DNA from: Rhizophagus irregularis
Lineage: Eukaryota > Glomeromycota > Glomeromycetes > Glomerales > Glomeraceae
Length of the DNA stretch: 64,000 bases
Reading direction: 5' to 3'
NCBI RefSeq assembly: GCF_026210795.1
Contig: NC_089430.1
Location: 1,674,001-1,738,000 of the forward strand
The position numbers were made by a program, and so were the translations under genes. Below the pieces are notes generated by a model that ran no database searches, was not told where the DNA came from, and saw nothing but the letters and a program-made list of their open reading frames with translations. Of the stretch, positions 2,334 through 29,967 are shown piece after piece; the stretch's first letter is position 1; each line of letters opens with the position of its first letter.

Positions 2334-3681
2334 ATGAGTACAGGTGAAAATTATATTGGTTATGAAGCTCTTGTTTATTACTTAAATGAATCAAAAAATT
2401 TGTCATACCATGGATTTTTGACACTTAACCAAAATATTATTATTGCTTCATTAACTCAACTAACTACTAACTCTTCATTAACATCAGCCAAGTGGCAAAG
2501 CTTTAATATTACTTGGATTAAACACTTTTTGTATAAAGCAAAAGATTAATTGGATTCAAATACTTTTATTGAATTAAAAAAAAAGGTATGTTTTGTTTTT
2601 ATTTTGCAAAGGGTGGGTAACTCCTAATACTCTGCGTAGTCACTTTGTGAGAATTACTGGTCTCGTTCACTTGGTAACCACTCCAGGCTCTCATTCCAGG
2701 CACCCTAACTTTGTTGTTAGTAAAGTCTGCTAATTCTGGAGGAGGAATTGGCTATGTTCCTTCTTTACTACTAAATAAAAATTTAGCATACAATTAACAA
2801 TCTGCTTTCTCATAATAGGTAAATACAGAAGACTCGCAACGTAAGAAAGAGTTGCAAATATTCTGGCAAGAAGTTATTAAGGAATACAAAAAAAGTCAGA
2901 AAATTATTAAAGAATGTGAAAAAGAAAATACTTTTGCCACTGATACATTTCTTCCAAAAAAGTCAGTTAAACATTCTGAACCTTTACAACAAGATGCATC
3001 TTTACTTTCAAAAAATACAGTTTAAAAGTTCTGTTAAAAATCTTTCTAAATCTGAACAACTAGATTTATCTAAAAAGAATATTAAACTTACTAATTTCTG
3101 TTATGATATATTTCATGAACTTGAAAATGAATCTTATGCTAATTTATTTTCTGAAAAGAATATTAAAAATAAGGTTATAAAACATCCAATGGATCTATTT
3201 ACTATAAATTTAAAATTAGAAAATAATCAATACAAAAATTTAAAAGAATTTGAAAAAGATATTCGTTTAATGTTTCGTAATTGTTATACATACAATGATG
3301 TTAAAAGTAAAGAATATTGTTCAGGTGAAAAATTAGAATCTATTTTTAATGAAAAATGGAATGAAAAAATTATTCTTCAAGATAGACAAACAAGAGAACT
3401 GAGAAGAACAAGGGAATGATGCAGATCAATCTTGGAAGAAACAAAGACAAATTTTAGAACAAAATAAAAATAATTTAATATATAGACATGTTATTAATGA
3501 TGCACTTCTTGTTGCTTCAGCATATGAAAGCCTTGTTGTAGGTAATATTGTTAGATGTCAGTTCTTATACGCTTAAAAATAAGCTATGCATTAAAAAATG
3601 TTTATATTTAATAAAGCAGAAGGTAATTTTAAAGATCAACGTACAGTATATGTTAAAATCAATCCAATCAGATGTGAATAG
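2334..3681 (+). pseudogene. Spliced bromodomain-protein gene, decayed
   Basis: The ATG at 2334 opens a frame (MSTGENYIGYEALVYYLNE...) that meets a TAA at 2547-2549 but stays coding-like to a GTATG donor at 2586. After the intron (acceptor at 2818) the frame resumes in phase 0 as VNTEDSQRKKELQ. It shifts near 3015 in an A-run into the frame that holds the bromodomain C-terminal half: HPMDLFTINLKLENNQY, then FEKDIRLMFRNCYTYN and a YCSGEKLE segment. These match the PMDL..I..KL and NC..YN signatures of BET-type bromodomains, which bind acetyl-lysine on histones. Another +1 shift near 3412 gives NDADQSWKKQRQILEQ and LLVASAYESLVV. A final piece, NKAEGNFKDQRTVYVKINP, ends at TAG 3679-3681. One stop and at least two frameshifts make this a pseudogene. 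The N-terminal function is unknown. Confidence 0.7.
2586..2818 (+). other. 233-nt intron shared with another locus (introner-like)
   Basis: GTATGT..ATAATAG boundaries keep the reading frame (phase 0) of the bromodomain pseudogene. The sequence is far longer than the 52-79-nt introns elsewhere in the window. It matches, along most of its length and at both ends, the intron at 40855-41238 on the opposite strand. Shared landmarks are GCAAAGGGTGGGTAACTCC after the donor, GAGGAATTGGCTATGT near the 3' part, AAATAAAAATTTAGCA, and CTTTCTCATAATAG at the acceptor. Confidence 0.65.
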
Positions 3682-3860
3682 AGTATCGCTTCACACTGGC
3701 ACATACAATCAGACACAAATAAGGGAAAGCAGTATTTAATAAAGCAGAAAGTAATTTTAAAGATCAACGTACAGTATATGTTAAAATCAATCCAATCAGA
3801 TGTGAATAGAGTATCGCTTCACACTGGCACATACAATCAGACACAAATAAGGGAAAGCAG
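3605..3860 (+). repeat. Perfect-length tandem duplication, 2 x 128 bp
   Basis: 3605-3732 and 3733-3860 are the same 128-bp unit (starts TATTTAATAAAGCAGAA, ends GGGAAAGCAG) with one G/A difference seen. The unit contains the last coding segment of the bromodomain pseudogene including its stop, so the terminal exon was duplicated in place. Confidence 0.95.
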
Positions 3861-4482
3861 ATTAACCATATAAAACCAAACTTAAAATTAAGGTGTATAT
3901 TAAAGGGTAAACATTTTATTAATTAAATTCTTCACACATGTTTCTATATTGAATAATGCTCTTAATTAAGGTCTAATTACAGGTCTATATATACATAAAA
4001 TTCCAAACTAAAAATGTTTAAAATGTTTGATATGTACCATATATACCATATGTGCAATATGTGCAATATACTGTATTTAATATATTTAATATATTAAACA
4101 TTTCGAACATTGATCTTGACGTTGATCATTCATCGGTAATTTTATTTATTTATTTATTTTATGTGAAGACGGACAGACTATTAACAGGACATATACGTAA
4201 CCGTGCTATCCTACTTCTAGCTATCATCCCCCCGAAGACGGACCCGAACTTCTTTAAATCTAACGAACCAGAATGATCCCCTCCCCTACCAGAAAGGAAC
4301 CAATGAACCAATTAAAAAGCGAACTAATTAACCCGTATTTTTCTTTCAACCATAAAGGTCGCCACCTGTAAATACTGTCATAGGTGGAATGATTCACACT
4401 ATTTGTAATTGTTAATATCTAACTTAATATGAACCAAAAATTCAAAAAATGAATTACAAAAAAGAAACTAAGTTAATTTGAT
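3861..4482. other. Gap downstream of the orphan gene
   Basis: No gene supported; an ORF at 4052-4276 looks accidental. There is a T-T-A-T microsatellite near 4140-4160 and a small stem CCACCT (4362-4367) with AGGTGG (4382-4387). The stem lies just 3' of the minus-strand gene that ends at 4483. GACGTTGATCATT at about 4117 resembles, inverted, GATGTTGATCAAT near 6806 on the far side of that gene. Confidence 0.45.
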
Positions 4483-19694: not shown

Positions 19695-20262
19695 TGTAAT
19701 GCCGTAGTATACATAGTAAATTTATTAATTGTGAGGCGCAGTATTATATTTAATCTTAGTGTATAAAATTTTAATTTATTTTTAGTTGTATTAATAATTA
19801 GACCGAAAAGTCGTTAAACTATTGATCAGGTGATTCAAGGATAATTGGTCCGAGATGACATTAAACTATCAGTCACGAGATTTAAGGATAAATAAAGATC
19901 CGAAAGATACTAAATTAAATGAAGTCAAGTGATCTGAGGTGTCAAGTGATTAACTTGCTGATCATTACTTTAATATTATAAATCATAATTCAGGAGGTCA
20001 CGATGATCAAATGGATACAGAATTAAGATAATGGAAATACTTTGATAATTTAAATCCATGAATCGAAATTATGAATTTGGTTACACTAAAACAAATATAA
20101 AAGGGTGTGAAGATCACCTTTTGAGAAGGACATTCTTGGATGAATTTCAATTTAATGTTATTAAACCAAGCATATTATTGTATTTATTTATATTATTAAT
20201 AAAGAGATATTTTGTTAATACCTAAGGTGGCAACGTGATTTATCACGGGCTTAGGTGTTACA
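19695..20262 (+). repeat. 5' LTR (568 bp)
   Basis: Begins TGTAATGCCGTAGTATACAT and ends TTAGGTGTTACA. It matches 29379-29967 except for a missing ~21-bp segment near 20150 and about two substitutions. It carries promoter and polyadenylation functions by family knowledge; AATAAAG at 20200-20206 is a possible polyadenylation signal. Confidence 0.95.
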
Positions 20263-20264
20263 AG

Positions 20265-20280
20265 TGGTGCATGCTCCGAG
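20265..20280 (+). other. Primer-binding site, glycine-tRNA-like
   Basis: TGGTGCATGCTCCGAG starts two bases after the 5' LTR. Its complement CTCGGAGCATGCACCA has the CCA tail, a discriminator A and a 7-nt acceptor strand AGCATGC. This pairs exactly with GCATGCT, the first seven bases of the glycine-tRNA-like relic at 29274 in the same element. So a tRNA-Gly primer is inferred. Confidence 0.75.
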
Positions 20281-21584
20281 AAAGGAAAAGTGATCATCCT
20301 CACATGATCACTACAGGTTACGAATAGGAGGATTTCCGAGAAAAGAAATGATCATTTATCACATGATCATCACAGGAAAAAGATTTAAAATCTTTCACCT
20401 AAGGATCGACAAAATTAAGAAGTTATAAAATTAAAAAGTTTAAAGTCTTGGTTGAAAAAGAATTTAAAAATGTATTAATGTTAAAATTTTAAGATATGCG
20501 AAAATAAAGGTTACCGATAAAAAAAATATTAATTCGAATAAATATAAACATGTAGGTAAAAATAATGTTCATAAATTATAATTTTTGATCTAACTTGACC
20601 ACCGGCTGATATGTCAATGAAAAATTATTATTACAATAATTTCCATGCATATGAATCAAATATGCATGGCAGTAATTGATTATCAAGGGAAATGCGAGGC
20701 TAATCAAGTTAGAAGGGGTTTTGAATAAAAATATTGTAAATAATTGAATGAGAGGATTAAGATTAAGTCTTGTATGGACTTTGATCATACTAAGTGTACC
20801 CAGAGCTGACACTATAAATTAAGATGGCGGGGATAATATAAAAGTGTACCCAGAGCCGACACTATAAATTAAGATGGCGGGGATAATATAAAAGTGTACC
20901 CAGGGCCGACGCTATAAATTAAGATGGCAGGGTTAATACTGTGTGATTCTGTGTGATTCTGTGTGAACTCAATTGAGGTATTCTGTGTGATCAATTGGGA
21001 ATAGGTCTGAGAAGGACCTTTAAAGATAATTCTGTGTGAACTTAGCTAAGAATAATTCTATGAGGGTACCCAAGAAAAATTATGATTAACGTTAACAAGA
21101 ATTAAAAATATTTGCTGGACAAATATATTCAAAGAAAGTTGTTAAAAATTAATAAGGATATAAATGATAAGAGATTTTGTAGCGTAGTAAAATTATATAA
21201 AATGTTAATACAGGTGTCGAGATTATTAATTAAAGATTATCAAAGCACAGTAAATTTTAGGATATAATAGAATTAGAGGCGTAGTAGAAGTATATGAAAG
21301 AGGGAGATTTGAATCTCCCACTTATTAAATGAATTGTTGACACCGTGGAAAGATACATCAGTCTTGGAAATACAACAAATAATCGGACAAATCAAATATG
21401 GATTCACACTTCAACCTTAGGTTGGAAAATTTTATGGAATATAAATTTATTTGTACAAACCTGTAAACTACCATACTCAGTAATGAACAAATGAGGTAAA
21501 GGCAAGCCCAGTATAGGTCAAATAAAATATAAAAGAAGGATAAAAAGTAAAAGATGTGAAAATTTTCAGAGAATTTTATTAAAA
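20281..21584 (+). other. Retrotransposon leader
   Basis: 1.3 kb untranslated leader upstream of Gag. Near 20277-20375 a block with TCCGAGAAA..GATCAT..CACATGATCA is repeated twice. Three 50-bp tandem units follow at 20794-20943. Packaging signals are likely here by analogy but not identifiable. Confidence 0.6.
20794..20943 (+). repeat. Tandem repeat in leader, 3 x 50 bp
   Basis: Units start at 20794, 20844 and 20894 with GTGTACCCAG and contain ACTATAAATTAAGATGGC. The third has several substitutions. Short GTGTGATTCT repeats follow. Confidence 0.9.
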
Positions 21585-24500
21585 ATGGAATGGTACCATG
21601 TTTGGAATGCTGGATATATAAACCATAAACAAGAACACGACCTAGGAGTGATAGAACCAGAGGAATGTTTAGCATGTGAAATATGTAACCCAATAGAAAG
21701 AGAAGTATCAGCAGCATTCAAGAAATTTTGGGATGCTTTATTTAAATTTAAGGATACAATACTAATGTACAATAATGTGACACATAAAGAATTATTGAAT
21801 TTATTAAGTATGGACAATAGAGAAAGGGAGGATACAATACATAAAGGAAAATGTAGGAATATAGTAGATAGAATAATTGAATCAATAAGGTACAGACAAC
21901 AACCAAAAATGAAAGAAAAAGGTTTAAGGATAATAATTGTAGTAATTGTAAGGGATTGTATTGAAGGAGACTTAGAAAATGAAGTATTTGACCGATTAAT
22001 TGGATGTCCAGAAATAATGGAACATGGATACATTTTAGAAGATTGGGATGTTGAAAATAGATTTCAAAAATTTTGGGATTGGTATAACACGATATTGGAA
22101 AATGAAATGAAAGCAATACATGTTAAGAAGTTAGCAATAAAGTTATTCAGGGATTTATTATATGAAGAAACAGAAGATCTGTTGAGGAGTGAAAAGGTAG
22201 TTGAATTAATACTCCAGATAGAACATCAGAATAGATGTGAGGCAGACACTCAAGAAGGAAAGGATGCATGGAAGAGATTGATGCAGAAAGTAGGACAAAG
22301 ATTTATTGACACCAAACAATTTACAAGGGAACCTGAGGACCCAGAAAGTGATAGTCCTGAAAGTTATGAACTAGAGGACAGTGATGGTAGTATACATTAT
22401 GAAATAAAAATAGAGGACAATGTCGAATGGACAGTGGAATTATTAAAAAGAAAAATTGAAGAAATGGGTGGAAGGTTCACTGACAAAGATATACAAAGAA
22501 TGTGGGACCTAAGGATAAGGATAGAATTGATATTAACAGAGGATTTTTTAGGTACATTTTTCGAATTAATGGGACTAAGTGATGAAAAATTAAAAGATGA
22601 AATAAATGAATGGTTGACAAAAGAAACATTGAGATGTGGAAATTGTAGAAATAGAAAGTTACCTGATATGATAGCAGACATTGGACAATGTAAAATTTGT
22701 GAACAAAAAGAATTATTAGAATTAAAGGATGACTTAGAAAAACTAGGATACGAATTAAATGTGTCAGAAATAGAGAGAATAAGAAAATTCAGGATAAGCA
22801 ATAGTATAATATTAACAACGGAATTTATGGAAAAATATTTCCAGGAAATTGATACGAATGACAAAGAATTAAGGATAAAATTATATGAATGGATAAATGA
22901 AAATACCACATTTTGTAATGAATGTGGAATAAGATGGATGAACAATAAATTTGACGAAGGAAAAACCAAGTGTAGGGATTGTGAGAATGACGAAAATGAA
23001 ATTGATATCAGGGTCAAAAGATTAAAACAAATATGTGATGATAATAAAATAGAAATAACTGATGGAGAGTTATTAAGGTTAATCAGTATGGGATATACTG
23101 ATGGAGAAATATTGGATCAAGAATTTATTGAAATATTCCAAGGAAATAAAAATGATTTGGAGAAAAATTTAAAACGGATATTGGATAAATTTCTAAAACA
23201 ACAAGCTGGAATTGAGGATAGTGAAAGTAGTGGAAATGAATCTGATAATGAAAAATCTGATGGATCTGAAAAAGAATCAGATGGATCTGGAAAAGATGGA
23301 GAAATTTTAAATCCAAATGATACCGATAGCAATGAAAATTTTGAAGAACCTTATGAAGAAAACATTATAAATAGACCTGGTTTTGACTCAAGTGAAAGTT
23401 CAGAACCAAATTCTGAGGATAAAAGTGAAATATCTGATTATAATATAGAAAATTTATCTGAAACACCTTTAACACCACCGATACCACCAATCCCACCAAT
23501 AGTACCAATAATTATGGGAGCAACAAGAGCTGAAGTAAGGGAAGATTTTAGAGCGGCTTTACTAGCAGCAACGGGACATGATATAGGAGGTAATTGGGCT
23601 GGATTAGTCGCAGCCAACCCATTAGCAAATGCAATTGAGGATGCAGGAAATGTAGCTGGAGGAATAATTAGTATGCCACAATTTTATGGAAAGGAAGAAG
23701 AAGATGTTAATGATTGGGTAAGACAATTCGAAATAGCATTTACTGCTATAGGAAAAGCAGCAGGAGTAAATGGAGCTAGACAAGCAGCAATGGCAGCTAC
23801 CTGTTTGAAAGGTGCAGCAGCACAATGGTATAATGAAAAGAAGGAAGCAAACAATGGTTATTTGATAAATTGGCAAGATAACGATAATGATAATGATTTA
23901 AAACATAGGATTAAACAAAGATTTACCAGGGAAGATGTTAGAAAAAGGAAAATGTTAGAATTAAGGAAAATAACACAAGGAGTAAATGAAAATGTTGAGG
24001 CATATACGATAAGGTTTAGACAAATATTAAGGATAGCTACCAGAGGCCATGCATTAGATGATGAATTACAAGTGGATAATTATATCGAAGGATTAACACC
24101 AGAATTGGGATATCAAGTCAGAAGACAAAACCCAGCAAATTTAAATGATGCAGTGAATACAGCAAGAAGAGAGGAGGAAGCTACTAATGAATTAATAAGA
24201 AGAACACGTAATATACCAGTTAGTACCCAAAGAAAAGGAATTGATATACAGGATGACAAGCCAAAGAATATATTTGAAAAACCATTGGAGAAAAATTATG
24301 AGGATGACCTTACCGAGATGTTTAAAAAATTAGAGGTAAAATTGACAAATCAACTTAGTGGACAAAGGAGACCACCAAATAACAATAGACAAGGACAACC
24401 ATTGCGAGCATGTTATAAATGTCAACAACCAGGACATTATGCAAGGGAATGTAGAGTAAATAATGGTCAAGCAAACTATAGAAGACCAAACAACCAAAAT

Positions 24501-25169
24501 TATAATAAAGGACCAAATAATTATAATGGAAGATCAAATAATTATAACAGACAACCAAATTACCAAAATAATAATCGAGGATTTAATACGATGGAATTTG
24601 ATAACTATAATGATTACAATGACCAATACGATTACGATGGCCAAGTTTATCAAGATGATTATGACCAAGAATACAATTATGGTGACCCATATTACCAAAA
24701 CAATGATATAGTATTTAACCATGTTGATCAAGATTTTTATAATAATCCAAGACAAACAAGGAGTAATATAAAAAATAGGTCAAGTGATCGAGATATAGAT
24801 ATGGAAATTGATCGAGAACAAGCACGCAGAAGAAATGATAAATATGCCAGTCAACAGAATAAGGCAGCAGCATTACCAAAAAGGGGATTTACTAGTGAGA
24901 GTTTGAGAAAAGCTCAGGAAACAAAAAGAAATAATAATACATGTGGAAATTGTGGACAAAAAGGTCACTATGCATCAGAATGTAAAAATGAACGTGTTGA
25001 AGGTATTCATAGGACAAGCGCATTTCAAAGAAATATACCAAAATATAACGTATTAGAGGATATGAAAAGTACCAGAGCAAATGCAACTTTTTCACAAATT
25101 ATAGATATAAGCCCAGAACAAAGAAAAATATATTATGATGGTATGAGAAGATATCCACAAGTAGATTGA
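21585..25169 (+). CDS. gag: Gag polyprotein with long Cys-rich repeat N-terminus
   Basis: 1194 aa, about three times the usual Ty3 Gag length. Residues about 690-880 are the retrotransposon Gag/capsid region (MPQFYGKEEEDVNDWVRQFE, CLKGAAAQWY, VEAYTIRFRQI). Two CCHC zinc knuckles follow, CYKCQQPGHYAREC (about 943) and CGNCGQKGHYASEC (about 1120), separated by an Asn/Tyr/Asp-rich linker. They bind element RNA in the particle. The N-terminal half is unlike other Gag proteins I know. From about residue 282 a unit of some 85-95 residues repeats: a helical part, then CGNC..CKIC (about 351-368) and CNEC..CRDC (about 444-463), followed by a third helical copy without cysteines. A Ser/Glu/Asp-rich acidic segment (about 540-620) and a Pro-Ile stretch link it to capsid. 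The UGA stop at 25167-25169 is followed by CUA with the protease open in the same frame. Confidence 0.9.
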   Translation: MEWYHVWNAGYINHKQEHDLGVIEPEECLACEICNPIEREVSAAFKKFWDALFKFKDTILMYNNVTHKELLNLLSMDNREREDTIHKGKCRNIVDRIIESIRYRQQPKMKEKGLRIIIVVIVRDCIEGDLENEVFDRLIGCPEIMEHGYILEDWDVENRFQKFWDWYNTILENEMKAIHVKKLAIKLFRDLLYEETEDLLRSEKVVELILQIEHQNRCEADTQEGKDAWKRLMQKVGQRFIDTKQFTREPEDPESDSPESYELEDSDGSIHYEIKIEDNVEWTVELLKRKIEEMGGRFTDKDIQRMWDLRIRIELILTEDFLGTFFELMGLSDEKLKDEINEWLTKETLRCGNCRNRKLPDMIADIGQCKICEQKELLELKDDLEKLGYELNVSEIERIRKFRISNSIILTTEFMEKYFQEIDTNDKELRIKLYEWINENTTFCNECGIRWMNNKFDEGKTKCRDCENDENEIDIRVKRLKQICDDNKIEITDGELLRLISMGYTDGEILDQEFIEIFQGNKNDLEKNLKRILDKFLKQQAGIEDSESSGNESDNEKSDGSEKESDGSGKDGEILNPNDTDSNENFEEPYEENIINRPGFDSSESSEPNSEDKSEISDYNIENLSETPLTPPIPPIPPIVPIIMGATRAEVREDFRAALLAATGHDIGGNWAGLVAANPLANAIEDAGNVAGGIISMPQFYGKEEEDVNDWVRQFEIAFTAIGKAAGVNGARQAAMAATCLKGAAAQWYNEKKEANNGYLINWQDNDNDNDLKHRIKQRFTREDVRKRKMLELRKITQGVNENVEAYTIRFRQILRIATRGHALDDELQVDNYIEGLTPELGYQVRRQNPANLNDAVNTARREEEATNELIRRTRNIPVSTQRKGIDIQDDKPKNIFEKPLEKNYEDDLTEMFKKLEVKLTNQLSGQRRPPNNNRQGQPLRACYKCQQPGHYARECRVNNGQANYRRPNNQNYNKGPNNYNGRSNNYNRQPNYQNNNRGFNTMEFDNYNDYNDQYDYDGQVYQDDYDQEYNYGDPYYQNNDIVFNHVDQDFYNNPRQTRSNIKNRSSDRDIDMEIDREQARRRNDKYASQQNKAAALPKRGFTSESLRKAQETKRNNNTCGNCGQKGHYASECKNERVEGIHRTSAFQRNIPKYNVLEDMKSTRANATFSQIIDISPEQRKIYYDGMRRYPQVD

Positions 25170-25709
25170 CTACAAGAACCAATAAATAACATTGAAGCTG
25201 AACATTTGACAGCATTAAGGGGTAAACTAATAATAAATCAAGAATTGAAGGATGTAATGTTTGATACAGGGGCAGCAGTAAATGTAATAACTAGTCAAAT
25301 AATGGATGAAATGGACCTAAGAATTGAAGAGCCAAGTACAGTAAGATGTGTGATGATAAATGAGGATAAAGTAGCATCAAGAGGTACCACAACAATATAC
25401 ATACAGTTTGGGGATAAGGAGATACCCATTAAGGTCGAAGTAATTGATTCTGGAAAGAATGAAATTGTGTTAGGGAATGGAGTATTAGATATGTTTAAGG
25501 CGAATATAGATTACACAGATAAAACAATAATACTTAGAATGGATGATGAAACCATGGATGTACCAGTAAAATATATACAAAAGACCATCAAAGGATTCGA
25601 AGAGACATTGATTGAAGATGAATTATTAGATGAATTATACCAAGATGAATTATACAATATATATGAAGATGATTATGAGAATTATGAAAATGAAAATTTT
25701 AAAGTATAA
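25170..25709 (+). CDS. Aspartic protease, in frame after the gag UGA
   Basis: The frame continues directly from Gag past the UGA (25167-25169) without another stop until TAA 25707-25709, so it need not have its own start. It has the retropepsin signature MFDTGAAVNVI (catalytic Asp in D-T-G-A) and the distal hydrophobic-Gly motif IVLGNGVLDMF. Acting as a dimer, it would cut the Gag-Pol precursor. The last 40 residues are very acidic. Expression presumably requires readthrough of UGA. The next enzyme lies in another frame, so in this copy the polyprotein would end here. Confidence 0.85.
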   Translation, partial: LQEPINNIEAEHLTALRGKLIINQELKDVMFDTGAAVNVITSQIMDEMDLRIEEPSTVRCVMINEDKVASRGTTTIYIQFGDKEIPIKVEVIDSGKNEIVLGNGVLDMFKANIDYTDKTIILRMDDETMDVPVKYIQKTIKGFEETLIEDELLDELYQDELYNIYEDDYENYENENFKV

Positions 25710-27184
25710 GTCTTGGTCAGAATGATACTGAAGAGACGATAAAGAAGCATAAAAATGACCATGAAAAATTTATTGAAAAATTTAAAGTAGGGGATATAAC
25801 CAATGAACAAAAGGGTAAATTAAAAGTATTAGTAGAAAAATATAAGGATATATTTGAGTACGATGGTGAAAAATATAACAGGACAAATCTAGTGAAACAT
25901 GAGATAAGACTAAAAGAAGGTACTGAACCGATAGCTCAAAAGAGATACAAAGAAAACGACGAAAAAGGTAAATTTATTAGAAAAGAGGTAGATGAAATGG
26001 TAAAATTAGGAAAAATTAGAGAATCCAGAAGCCCTTGGTCTTCACCAGTGACTTTAGCAGGAAAAAAGTCTGGAAATTATAGATTTTGCATCGATTATAG
26101 AAAATTAAATAAAGTTACAATAGCAGATGCATATCCATTACCAAGGATTGACGAACAATTAGAAAGGATAAGCTCAGGAAAATGGTTCACAAGCTTAGAC
26201 TTAGCATCAGGGTTCAATCAGATAGAGATGGCCGAGGAAGATATTGAGAAAACAGCATTCATATGCTCAGCAGGATTATATGAATATAATGTCATGCCAT
26301 TTGGGTTAACAAATGCGCCTGCAAGTTTTCAAAGGTTAATGGATAAAGTATTAAAGGAATACCTGAATGAATTTGTAATAGTGTACATTGATGATATAAT
26401 GATATATTCGGAAAATTTTGAAGACCACCTAAAACACATAAAGTTAGTGTTAGAAAAATTAAAGGAAGCCAGTTTAATACTAAAGTTAAAGAAATGTATA
26501 TTTGGAAAAACAGAAATAGAATTTTTAGGACATGTAGTTGGTAAAAATGGATTAAAACCAAGTCCAGGAAAAGTCGAAAAGATACAAAAATTAACAGCAC
26601 CTACAAATATAAAAGGTGTAAGGTCAATATTAGGATTATGTACGTATTATAGAAAATTTATTAAAGACTTTTCAAAAATAGTAAAACCAATAACGTCTTT
26701 ATTGAGAAAAGATGAAAAGTTTGAATGGGGTATCAAACAACATGAAGCATTAGAAATATTAAAAAGGAAATTAACCGAAGAACCAGTGTTAAGACAACCA
26801 GATTGGTTAAGGAAATTTATATTAATTACAGATGCTTCAGGAATAAGATTAGGGGCAGTATTAGCTCAAAAAGATGATAAAGGTCAAGAATACGTAATAG
26901 AATATGCCAGTAAAAGTTTAAACAGGACAGAACAAAGATGGCCAATAACTGAACAAGAATGTTATGCAATTGTATGGGGAATACAACATTTCCATAAATA
27001 CTTGATCAATAGAAAATTTGAGGTAGTGACAGATCATGCAGCTTTGAAAGGATTGATGACTGCAAAAGTACCAAAAGGAAAGAGATCAAGATGGGTCATG
27101 GAATTAGAACAGTATGATTTTGAAATAACCCATAGACCAGGAAAAGAAAATAAAAATGCGGATGCATTATCAAGAATAATATAA
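25703..27184 (+). CDS. Reverse transcriptase and RNase H
   Basis: This frame (-1 relative to protease) is open from 25703, beginning SISLGQNDTEETIKKHKN. An acceptable AUG is not seen upstream of RT. Numbering from the GTG codon at 25892: RT strand SLDLASGF (Asp103), YIDD active site (165-168), MPFGLTNAPASFQ, then LGHVV and the connection. RNase H follows with ITDASG (Asp314), Glu356, Asp381 and NADALSRI (Asp424). Together these copy the element RNA into DNA and remove the RNA strand. All catalytic acids are present. The frame break at 25700-25709 gives no slippage solution (TAA in the RT frame at 25700-25702), so it is probably a mutation of this copy. Confidence 0.9.
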   Translation, partial: SISLGQNDTEETIKKHKNDHEKFIEKFKVGDITNEQKGKLKVLVEKYKDIFEYDGEKYNRTNLVKHEIRLKEGTEPIAQKRYKENDEKGKFIRKEVDEMVKLGKIRESRSPWSSPVTLAGKKSGNYRFCIDYRKLNKVTIADAYPLPRIDEQLERISSGKWFTSLDLASGFNQIEMAEEDIEKTAFICSAGLYEYNVMPFGLTNAPASFQRLMDKVLKEYLNEFVIVYIDDIMIYSENFEDHLKHIKLVLEKLKEASLILKLKKCIFGKTEIEFLGHVVGKNGLKPSPGKVEKIQKLTAPTNIKGVRSILGLCTYYRKFIKDFSKIVKPITSLLRKDEKFEWGIKQHEALEILKRKLTEEPVLRQPDWLRKFILITDASGIRLGAVLAQKDDKGQEYVIEYASKSLNRTEQRWPITEQECYAIVWGIQHFHKYLINRKFEVVTDHAALKGLMTAKVPKGKRSRWVMELEQYDFEITHRPGKENKNADALSRII

Positions 27185-27273
27185 ATAGATAGGTAAAAGA
27201 CTTGAGACTCAAAAATATATAACAAAAGAGTTAAGCAGGATAAATAAATTGAAATTACCCGAGCAATGTAAAA

Positions 27274-28764
27274 ATGGGACCTAAAATAATAATTATATGT
27301 GGAGTTGATGGTACTGGAAAAACATTCATCGTAAATAAACTTATAAAAGAATTTGAAAAAGTAGGACAAAGTGTGAGGTTTAACACCTTTAAAAGGAGAA
27401 GAGAGGACAATGATAAGTATAAAATACCAAAGAAAGGTATAGAATGGGAATTCAGGAAGGAAGTTGTCGAACAAATCAACAGGAGAATGGAAGAACATGA
27501 TAATGAGGATTGGTTAATATTAGATAAAAGTCCTTATAGTGAGTACTTTTATCAACAGACACCATCATTTGATAGAGGATACATATCAAGATATGAGAAC
27601 CACCTATTAGAAAAGGAAATATTTAGGAACAAAAGGATAATTGATGAATCAATAGTGATATTTTTAGAAAATGAAAAATGTTGGGAAAATTACAAAGGTA
27701 GAGAATATTCGAAAAAGGATCAAGGACATAAAACATCATACCCATTGTTAAATGAAGAAAGATATATGGAGATGGTGAAATCATTTAAAGAATGTCAAGA
27801 TATTTACGAAGGAGAAAAATATGCTAATATTAAAATATCAAATAATGACACAGATTGGGAAAGAGTATATAATAAAATAATAGAATTAGATGGAGATAAA
27901 CCACCAATAGAGGTTAAAAATGTTGAGATTAAGGATAACATCAGAGTAACTGATGGTAAAAAGTATATTGAGAAAAATAGTAAAAACATCAGAGTAATAG
28001 AAGACTTTGAAAAGATGGGAGCATTATATTTGGCTCACAGTCATGAATTATCGGCACATATGGGAATCAAAAGTACTTATGATAATTTAAAAGATAAATA
28101 TTATTGGGAAAATATGCTGAATGATGTTGAAAGATATGTAAGGACATGTGATAAATGTCAGAGAAGAGGAAAACCACAAGGGAAAAATGAATTACACCCA
28201 ATTAAAGTAGTAGAACCATGGTATCAAATCGGGATTGACTTTGTCGGACCATTGAACACAACAACAAATGGTAATAAATACATCATAGTAGTGATGGATT
28301 ATTTTACAAAATGGCCAGAAGCCAAAGCAGTAAAAGAAGCAACTGCTAAAGAAGTATCAAAATTTATTTATGAAGATATCATCTGTAGACATGGATGTCC
28401 AATGAAGATATTGAGTGATAGAGGAAGTCACTTTAACAATGAAATGATTAAAGAATTAATGGAAAAATTCAGGATAAAATGGAATTTTTCTACCAGTTAC
28501 CATCCAGAAACAAATGGATTGGTTGAAAGATTCAATCGAACATTAGGTCAAGCATTAGCAAAATTATCAACTAAGGATGATTGGGATCAAAAGATAGCAC
28601 CCATATTATTCGCCTACAGAAATAAAAAGCACAGTTCAACAAAAATTCGACCATTTTATCTAACATATGGAAGAAATGTACGGACAATAATGGATGAAGA
28701 TATCAAAGGAATCAACCTAAGTGACAGAATAGTTGGATTATTAGAAGAATTACCAAAAATCTGA
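27274..28764 (+). CDS. Thymidylate-kinase-like domain fused to integrase
   Basis: 496 aa from an ATG in good context (AAAATGG), 90 nt after the RNase H stop. Residues 1-205 form a complete P-loop nucleotide-kinase-like domain. IIIICGVDGTGKTF holds Walker A at 10-17. LILDKSPYSEYFYQQ (81-95) aligns with the thymidylate-kinase D-R-Y-x-x-S-x-x-A-Y-Q motif with Lys for Arg. IVIFLENEKCWENYKGREY follows, then a Lys/Arg-rich lid-like region, and WERVYNKIIEL closes the fold. From 250 on is integrase: H257/H262 with C292/C295 zinc site, catalytic Asp322, Asp382 and Glu418 (35-residue D-E spacing). TMK phosphorylates dTMP to dTDP, so the module may raise dTTP during cDNA synthesis. Whether it is cleaved off or stays tethered is unknown. 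A UGA at 28762-28764 removes the integrase C-terminus. It could instead be another P-loop nucleotide kinase. Confidence 0.85.
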   Translation: MGPKIIIICGVDGTGKTFIVNKLIKEFEKVGQSVRFNTFKRRREDNDKYKIPKKGIEWEFRKEVVEQINRRMEEHDNEDWLILDKSPYSEYFYQQTPSFDRGYISRYENHLLEKEIFRNKRIIDESIVIFLENEKCWENYKGREYSKKDQGHKTSYPLLNEERYMEMVKSFKECQDIYEGEKYANIKISNNDTDWERVYNKIIELDGDKPPIEVKNVEIKDNIRVTDGKKYIEKNSKNIRVIEDFEKMGALYLAHSHELSAHMGIKSTYDNLKDKYYWENMLNDVERYVRTCDKCQRRGKPQGKNELHPIKVVEPWYQIGIDFVGPLNTTTNGNKYIIVVMDYFTKWPEAKAVKEATAKEVSKFIYEDIICRHGCPMKILSDRGSHFNNEMIKELMEKFRIKWNFSTSYHPETNGLVERFNRTLGQALAKLSTKDDWDQKIAPILFAYRNKKHSSTKIRPFYLTYGRNVRTIMDEDIKGINLSDRIVGLLEELPKI

Positions 28765-29055
28765 TATGAAGCCAAAGAACAAATATTAAAATCTCAAATA
28801 AAACAAAAAGAGTATCATGACAGAAAAATAATTAAAGAACATACCTTTGGAATTGGAGATAAAATATTACTTTATGATAAAGCCAAAGCACAACAATTAT
28901 CTGGAAAATTGGAATCAAAATGGTTGGGACCATTTTACATTCATGAAATACTACCAAACGGAGCCTACAAAATTAAAGATATTAAGGGTGTAATCAAGAA
29001 AACACCTGTAAATGGAGAATTGTTAAAGACTTACCATACACCGATGAGTAAATGA
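28765..29055 (+). pseudogene. Integrase C-terminal GPY/F module after in-frame UGA
   Basis: The integrase frame continues past the UGA with YEAKEQILKSQIKQKEYHD. It then has KWLGPFYIHEILPNGAYKI, the GPY/F-type module that ends Ty3 integrases, to the stop TGA 29053-29055. So one nonsense codon splits an otherwise normal integrase. Readthrough would give the full protein. Confidence 0.85.
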
Positions 29056-29273
29056 TAACCATCATCAATGGACTTAGAAAAATAAAGATAATTTATAATC
29101 ATGTGAAATAAAATCACATGACATAAAAATAATTTTGGAAAAATAGGAAAAATTAATGAAAATTTCCAAAGAAAGACCTAAGTGAAATCCGGTACAAGAA
29201 AACCGTGAAATTCAAAAGAACACATGACAAACCACGGGAACAGCTGCAGGACGCAGCTAAGTCAAGTAACAAC

Positions 29274-29342
29274 GCATGCTTGATTTAGTAGTATAATTCG
29301 CACCTACCACTTCGAGACACGAGTTCGATTCTTAGAATAAAT
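29274..29342 (+). pseudogene. Glycine-tRNA-like relic inside the retrotransposon
   Basis: The stretch reads like a tRNA. It has an acceptor 5' strand GCATGCT, then TG, a D-arm ATTTAGTAGTATAATT, and anticodon stem CGCAC with loop CTACCAC. Variable bases, a T-arm ACGAG-TTCGATT-CTTAG and AATAAAT follow. Layout and D/T-arm words fit eukaryotic tRNA-Gly, where the loop is normally C-T-G-C-C-A-C. The 3' acceptor strand and 3' anticodon stem no longer pair, so it is not functional. Its first seven bases are exactly complementary to the acceptor strand implied by the element's primer-binding site. Confidence 0.6.
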
Positions 29343-29368
29343 TTAATGAGGGCATTAAATTTTCATGC

Positions 29369-29378
29369 GGGGGATAGT
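29369..29378 (+). other. Polypurine tract
   Basis: GGGGGATAGT directly abuts the 3' LTR start at 29379, the standard place for plus-strand DNA priming. Confidence 0.75.
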
Positions 29379-29967
29379 TGTAATGCCGTAGTATACATAG
29401 TAAATTTATTAATTGTGAGGCGCAGTATTATATTTAATCTTAGTGTATAAAATTTTAATTTATTTTTAGTTGTATTAATAATTAGACCGAAAAGTCGTTA
29501 AACTATTGATCAGGTGATTCAAGGATAATTGGTCCGAGATGACATTAAACTATCAGTCACGAGATTTAAGGATAAATAAAGATCCGAAAGATACTAAATT
29601 AAATGAAGTCAAGTGATCTGAGGTGTCAAGTGATTAACTTGCTGATCATTACTTTAATATTATAAATCATAATTCAGGAGGTCACGATGATCAAATGGAT
29701 ACAGAATTAAGATAATGGAAATACTTTGATAATTTAAATCCATGAATCGAAATTATGAATTTGGTTACACTAAAACAAATATAAAAGGGTGTGAAGATCA
29801 CCTTTTGAGAAGGACATTCTTGGATGAATTTCGATAATGAATTATTTATTAGTTATTTAATGTTATTAAACCAAGCATATTATTGTATTTATTTATATTA
29901 TTAATAAAGAGATATTTTGTTAATACCTAAGGTGGCAATGTGATTTATCACGGGCTTAGGTGTTACA
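29379..29967 (+). repeat. 3' LTR (589 bp)
   Basis: Same sequence as 19695-20262, with an extra ~21-bp segment near 29835-29860 (TTATTTATTAGTTATTTAAT region). It ends TTACA followed by the ACGT target copy. Confidence 0.95.

Follow-up and report, generated by a model that had tools for sequence, protein, structure and literature searches.

A P-loop kinase of the thymidylate and deoxynucleoside kinase group between RNase H and integrase in Ty3/Gypsy elements of Glomeraceae

Kinase-bearing element in Rhizophagus irregularis

The window, meaning the whole stretch of DNA analyzed here, is a 64,000-nucleotide segment of the Rhizophagus irregularis genome (contig NC_089430.1, positions 1,674,001 to 1,738,000), and bases 19695-29967 of it are a single Ty3/Gypsy insertion. 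Open reading frame (ORF) 27274-28764 of this element begins with about 205 residues that hold GVDGTGKT and LDKSPYSEYFYQ and then continues into an integrase zinc finger and core. An earlier note, made from the sequence alone, had pointed to these kinase-like residues (GVDGTGKT, DKSPYSEYFYQ) ahead of the integrase of a Ty3 element, and we observe the same arrangement. A group of Ty3/Gypsy elements in Glomeraceae carries a P-loop kinase of the thymidylate kinase (TMK) and deoxynucleoside kinase (dNK) group between RNase H and integrase; our computational analysis shows its fold, its conserved catalytic motifs, its copy number, purifying selection on it, and its exchange between families.

The insertion shares several features with Ty3/Gypsy elements (Metaviridae). 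Its long terminal repeats (LTRs) have TG..CA ends and are flanked on both sides by a short ACGT target duplication, its gag carries CCHC zinc knuckles, its Pfam matches run in the order protease, reverse transcriptase (RT), RNase H, integrase, and its RT is closest to that of Ty3 among structures in the PDB. It departs from Ty3/Gypsy, however, in having a kinase between RNase H and integrase, in splitting pol into separate ORFs and, in the window family, in having a small coding ORF between the pol ORFs. The LTR pair differs by 2 mismatches over 568 aligned positions and one 21-base indel (Table 1). The kinase and RT frames of the window copy are open; the copy need not be autonomous, given the stop in its integrase frame at 28762-28764 and the shortened gap ahead of the kinase. 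A 503-residue frame is common to 5 of the 32 full-length matches (the window copy, L002, L010, L012, and L013); these five seem to share the early integrase end, and other copies have intact frames.

Table 1. Features of the Ty3/Gypsy insertion, in window positions unless residues are given
Feature	Position	Strand	Details
5' LTR	19695..20262	+	568 bases, TGTAA...TTACA; ACGT directly before
gag ORF	21585..25169	+	1194 amino acids; Retrotrans_gag and CCHC zinc knuckles; terminates TGA CTA
Protease	25170..25709	+	continues gag frame past TGA
RT-RNase H open frame	25703..27184	+	closest solved structure Ty3 RT-RNase H (4ol8), E 2.2e-96
Gap from RT-RNase H to kinase-integrase	27185..27273	+	89 bases, shortened in window copy
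Remnant of 79-codon frame	27189-27284	+	window copy
Kinase domain	27274..27888	+	residues 1-205 of ORF 27274-28764
Kinase motifs	residues		P-loop 10-17; FKRRR 39-43; DKSPYSEYFYQ 84-94; lid region about 132-160
Linker	27889..28023	+	residues 206-250
Integrase	28024..28764	+	H2C2 zinc finger 251-299, core 318-411; TGA at 28762-28764
Remainder of integrase frame past TGA	28765..29052	+	96 codons
3' LTR	29379..29967	+	589 bases; ACGT directly after

Copy number, selection, and exchange of the kinase

A search of the 146.7-Mb genome with a single kinase piece gave at least 150 matches, which merge into at least 144 distinct loci; at least 129 of these consist of one nearly complete piece (≥190 of 205 residues), with no stop in 122 of the 129. 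Such locus counts cover the best-scoring candidates only and are lower bounds. Of 112 RT matches at ≥64% identity, 107 are followed by a listed kinase no more than 1.5 kb away. Two others are window-family copies (96-99% identical) with a same-strand kinase some 4 and 15 kb beyond, and are probably interrupted copies, while the remaining three have no kinase among the matches listed. The sequence of two of these three was read and the kinase was absent from both: integrase follows 210 bases after RNase H on C31 (L050, L052), and the element on C24 (L051) is broken up; the third locus is C12:5075194. The RT of the kinase-less elements nests beside the window RT, with Ty3 as outgroup and weak support (49, 61), a placement that would fit either gain or loss of the kinase. 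Protein searches returned 32, 86, and 36 relatives. Organism names are attached to 22 of the 86 (14 R. irregularis, 4 R. clarus, and 4 Glomus cerebriforme), and NCBI taxonomy places R. irregularis and G. cerebriforme in Glomeraceae.

The earlier note had supposed that a captured kinase is kept intact by selection in its family, as opposed to a fusion unique to one copy with neutral decay elsewhere. The many copies and the low ratios of nonsynonymous to synonymous divergence (dN/dS) support purifying selection on the kinase across copies and families and contradict the second outcome. Over 30 window-family copies, mean dN/dS was 0.126 in the kinase, compared with 0.247 in the linker and 0.075 in integrase. 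Kinase variants found once comprise 25 synonymous and 27 nonsynonymous changes, those common to 2-4 copies 15 and 3, and those common to at least 5 copies 7 and 4; the surplus of nonsynonymous changes among variants found once is consistent with decay following insertion, on top of strong constraint during spread. Stops interrupt the kinase in none of the 30 copies and integrase in 3, although stops are under-counted here because the 30 are the best-scoring copies. Against L037, a diverged window-family copy, dN/dS was 0.15 at a synonymous divergence (dS) of 0.33. Across 24 pairs between families it ranged from 0.09 to 0.27, with values of 0.10 for L041/L044 (dS 0.58), 0.26 for L042/L044 (0.81), 0.10 for both L042/L039 and L042/L040 (0.99 each), 0.09 for L042/L043 (1.03), and 0.22 for L041/L042 (1.05); the other pairs are near saturation. 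LTR elements do pick up extra ORFs, as two published accounts describe (PMC2864245, PMC5408684), and the extra ORFs treated in one of them gave no significant departure from neutrality (PMC5408684), so a neutral passenger, a piece of a host gene acquired by accident, would have precedent. The low dN/dS within and between families, the stop-free state of most loci, the spread of the kinase over diverged families and three named species, and its exchange as a module contradict that explanation and leave it next to no probability.

In the elements read, the kinase is placed after RNase H and before integrase, but the ORF that hosts it differs. In the window family it forms a fusion with integrase; in L041-L044 it is fused behind RT-RNase H, and integrase has a separate ORF. 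P0012 (R. irregularis) is a kinase-integrase protein with an N-terminal extension, and P0044, P0046, and other predicted proteins of 254-264 amino acids begin with Met and carry only the kinase. Exchange of the kinase cassette between families is shown by L041, since its RT sides with L042 (88% identical, compared with 67% to L044) whereas its kinase sides with L044 (88%, compared with 65% to L042). Two of 21 sequences, P0024 and P0029, were left out of the trees (end marks not found). Between the window element and six others, identity is 62-67% for RT and 55-61% for the kinase, and window integrase is 53-60% identical to that of seven elements. As a separate observation, residues 1-55 of P0044 are confidently modelled as a putative conserved domain of about 55 residues ahead of the kinase, with similar stretches in L041-L043, P0012, and P0014 and none in the window family; fold-search matches for P0044 span residues 55-263, so the fold of this domain is barely covered.

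Small ORFs accompany the pol ORFs. The gap before the kinase is about 265 bases in 24 of the 30 window-family copies read, and in 23 of 30 it contains a 79-codon frame (MEQVV...KNGT) that terminates shortly after the kinase ORF begins (ATGGGACCTAA); two of these 23 deviate, L008 in having no such stop and L030 in having ACG where the kinase starts. The frame looks coding, because its site-corrected ratio of nonsynonymous to synonymous variants is 0.17 for those found once and 0.27 for those shared. When read by eye, L042, L043, and the kinase-less L050 have a common small ORF (GLEIYVFIIH...) directly before integrase, L041 has an unrelated small ORF there, and L044 has a 54-base gap only. An unassigned 113-codon open stretch lies between the kinase and integrase ORFs of L041, at bases 3640-3981. 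The small ORFs extend across the next start codon or end right beside it. This arrangement suggests a Pol that is divided, in this Ty3 group, among ORFs each with its own initiation, and from it we infer that the downstream pol ORFs may be reached by termination-reinitiation.

Class and favored function of the kinase

The kinase belongs to the nucleotide or nucleoside kinase class. The earlier note had called for a structural match to nucleoside-monophosphate kinases, and one was found: the domain matches the TMK fold, tied with the dNK fold (VIA Z of the model 16.9 for dCK and 16.5 for TMK, a difference below 1). Its best Foldseek match is a deoxyadenosine kinase, and all of the PDB matches listed (50 in each of two fold searches) are TMK, dCK/dGK, or AbmG. 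In the 12 kinase domains of alignment A1, V11-G13, G15, K16, K40-R43, D84-Y88, C136, W137, R143, and E144 are invariant. These 12 were not selected by motif (13 pieces were cut, and P0024 was dropped as a near copy of P0016) and are the basis for our statement of P-loop conservation; among the 60 retro-kinases of our profile set such conservation is built in, because they were chosen by VDGxGK[ST]. PF02223 (TMK; phage PHROG 761) and TIGR00041 match 12 of the 12 domains (PF02223 at 2.6e-8), and some relatives, such as P0054 and P0062, carry precomputed PF02223 annotation. PF01712 (dNK) matches 4 of the 12, at best 6.1e-4, and does not match the window domain at E ≤ 0.1.

Enzyme activity of this domain is likely, and a deoxynucleoside monophosphate (dNMP) kinase is more likely than a dNK. 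Generally, TMKs have a DR[YHS] motif and dNKs have a catalytic Glu after the second strand. In alignments of remote proteins, which compare sequences rather than mapping residues one by one onto a ligand-bound structure, the invariant Asn37 appears to occupy the dNK Glu position and the KRRR cluster appears to adjoin the TMK FPxR position. We favor a dNMP kinase because no acidic residue aligns with the dNK Glu position, KRRR aligns beside the FPxR position, the P-loop is of the TMK type, and TMK family scores exceed those for dNK. dTMP is one candidate substrate, although to name it in particular is tentative. The captured kinase would then be active in making a DNA precursor, would be made with RT or integrase, within Pol or beside it, and, by analogy with retroviral deoxyuridine triphosphatase (dUTPase), may raise the supply of deoxynucleoside triphosphates (dNTPs) for reverse transcription where host supply limits. 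Supply of dNTP precursors is our best guess for the role, held with modest confidence, and the explanation as a whole, an element kinase that feeds reverse transcription, seems somewhat favored.

Several points weigh against this reading. The window copy scores 21.2 bits with PF02223, under the cut-off of 27. The second motif is D-K-S, not DR[YHS], in all 12 domains. The profile of the 60 retro-kinases gives 44 bits (including a composition bias of 10) to a host dNK-type protein, compared with 32 and 13 for phage TMKs, 11 for the host TMK, assembled from exons, and 9 for E. coli Tmk, while reversed controls gave at most 0.5 bits. Because related kinase-less elements persist, the kinase is not indispensable to such elements. 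RT-RNase H, kinase, and integrase do not lie in one stop-free frame. Finally, the product of a dNMP kinase is a dNDP, so that host NDP kinase is still required.

Some of the same evidence bears on a deoxynucleoside (salvage) kinase like dCK, dGK, or dAK, which would phosphorylate nucleosides that are imported or released from DNA and would still feed reverse transcription. Such an enzyme would agree with the tied fold, the top Foldseek match, the leading place of the host dNK-type protein in the profile comparison, its hhalign probability of 97.6 (80.8 and 50.7 for two phage TMKs), and the second motif of the retro-kinase, since DKSPYSEYFY resembles DRTPLSSYFF of that host protein and DKS is like E/DRS. 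The kinase gave no real hhalign match to E. coli Tmk (probability 0.1). In contrast to dNKs, however, the retro-kinase has no acidic residue aligned with the Glu of the host dNK-type HET motif, and it has the invariant N37 and KRRR, and PF01712 reaches only the 4 of 12 domains noted above, so we regard a salvage kinase as unlikely. The thymidylate kinase identity proposed in the earlier note stands in part: the TMK fold, P-loop, and 12-domain profile are shared, but the fold is equally that of dNK, the profile ranks host dNK-type protein above host TMK, and, unlike host TMK, the retro-kinase has DKS for DR[YHS] and FKRR for FPxR, besides being part of a retrotransposon. Phosphorylation of dTMP, action inside the particle, and A+T richness as the reason for the capture, all put forward in that note, would go beyond this evidence.

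The best Pfam row of the window domain is AAA_28 (PF13521), at 27.2 bits against a threshold of 27 (24.7 for the whole ORF), and one NadR/Ttd14 phage protein is among the 50 viral fold matches listed. A P-loop kinase for another small substrate (a NadR-like nicotinamide riboside kinase or other nucleotide kinase) or for nucleic-acid ends, with a role unrelated to dNTP supply, would suit these matches, but the PDB matches listed and the uniform TIGR00041 and PF02223 matches make it quite improbable. Even less probable is a kinase fold that persists as a structural scaffold or for binding RNA, DNA, or a host factor, in place of catalysis; a Lys where the DR motif usually has Arg, and the movement of the domain between ORFs as a module, would be compatible with it, but the P-loop residues and basic cluster are invariant in the 12 domains.

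Relation to known systems and source of the kinase

The nearest parallel to the favored dNTP-supply kinase is the dUTPase of retroviruses and LTR elements, likewise a captured enzyme of DNA-precursor metabolism. This dUTPase is variably placed, in retroviruses also between RT and integrase (PMC2427051, PMC2864245, PMC5408684), and occurs in fungal LTR elements (Postia, Phanerochaete, Tuber) and bdelloid Juno/Vesta/TelKA (PMC2864245, PMC5408684). Carriers among retroviruses include non-primate lentiviruses and betaretroviruses; in the former the enzyme is required in non-dividing cells and may sit between RT and integrase (PMC2427051). The retro-kinase differs from these dUTPases in enzyme class and fold (P-loop kinase) and in its occurrence, within a single fungal genome, at 107 of 112 related RT loci among the matches listed. 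The literature searched yields no report of a thymidylate or nucleoside kinase in a retrotransposon, with most subscription journals outside it and an earlier report possible, and the word "kinase" is absent from the main text of a survey of fungal LTR elements (PMC3248453).

Retroelements are assumed to draw their dNTPs from the host, with dUTPase capture guarding quality only. We consider it an evenly balanced proposition that a Ty3 clade in several Glomeraceae species encodes a deoxynucleotide kinase that accompanies RT or integrase, produces dNTP precursors on the spot, and passes between families as a cassette; no other retroelements are known that produce their dNTP supply as well as clean it. 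If so, a selected nucleotide-type kinase in many copies and several families would imply that dNTP supply may limit retrotransposition in these fungi. The exchange also shows Pol as a modular string whose accessory enzyme passes from one family to another, and the kinase accounts for some "thymidylate kinase-like" gene models of Rhizophagus, which are retrotransposon parts. Gypsy elements of R. irregularis, in general, are among those expressed in spores and colonized roots, according to two studies (PMC8647823, PMC11075540).

Searches for a source used two to six peptide patterns per scan and found no confirmed relative in viral contigs (queries P0001 and A1) or in prokaryote genome contigs (query A1). 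Phage searches by tblastn gave 47 records at an E limit of 10, and coverage stayed below 80% of the query in every one; the best 20 of the 47 have E values of 0.4-9, and 13 of these 20 are annotated as thymidylate kinase. The intron-like loci L033 and L038 were rejected as a host-gene origin, being decayed element copies, and neither the host TMK (C13, in exons) nor the host dNK-type gene (C28:1224011) is a close relative. The latter locus, L049 (G000:C28:1224011-1224604), which may be of host or viral origin, is the sole dNK-type match in the fungus and has an open frame of 336 codons.

Outside the kinase, the window gag is long compared with Ty3 gags and ends in a readthrough-prone context. 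About 700 of its residues (21585-23765) lie upstream of the capsid match, contain several CxxC pairs, and have no Pfam row. The untranslated leader of the element holds a 50-base unit in 2.9 tandem copies at 20792-20938.
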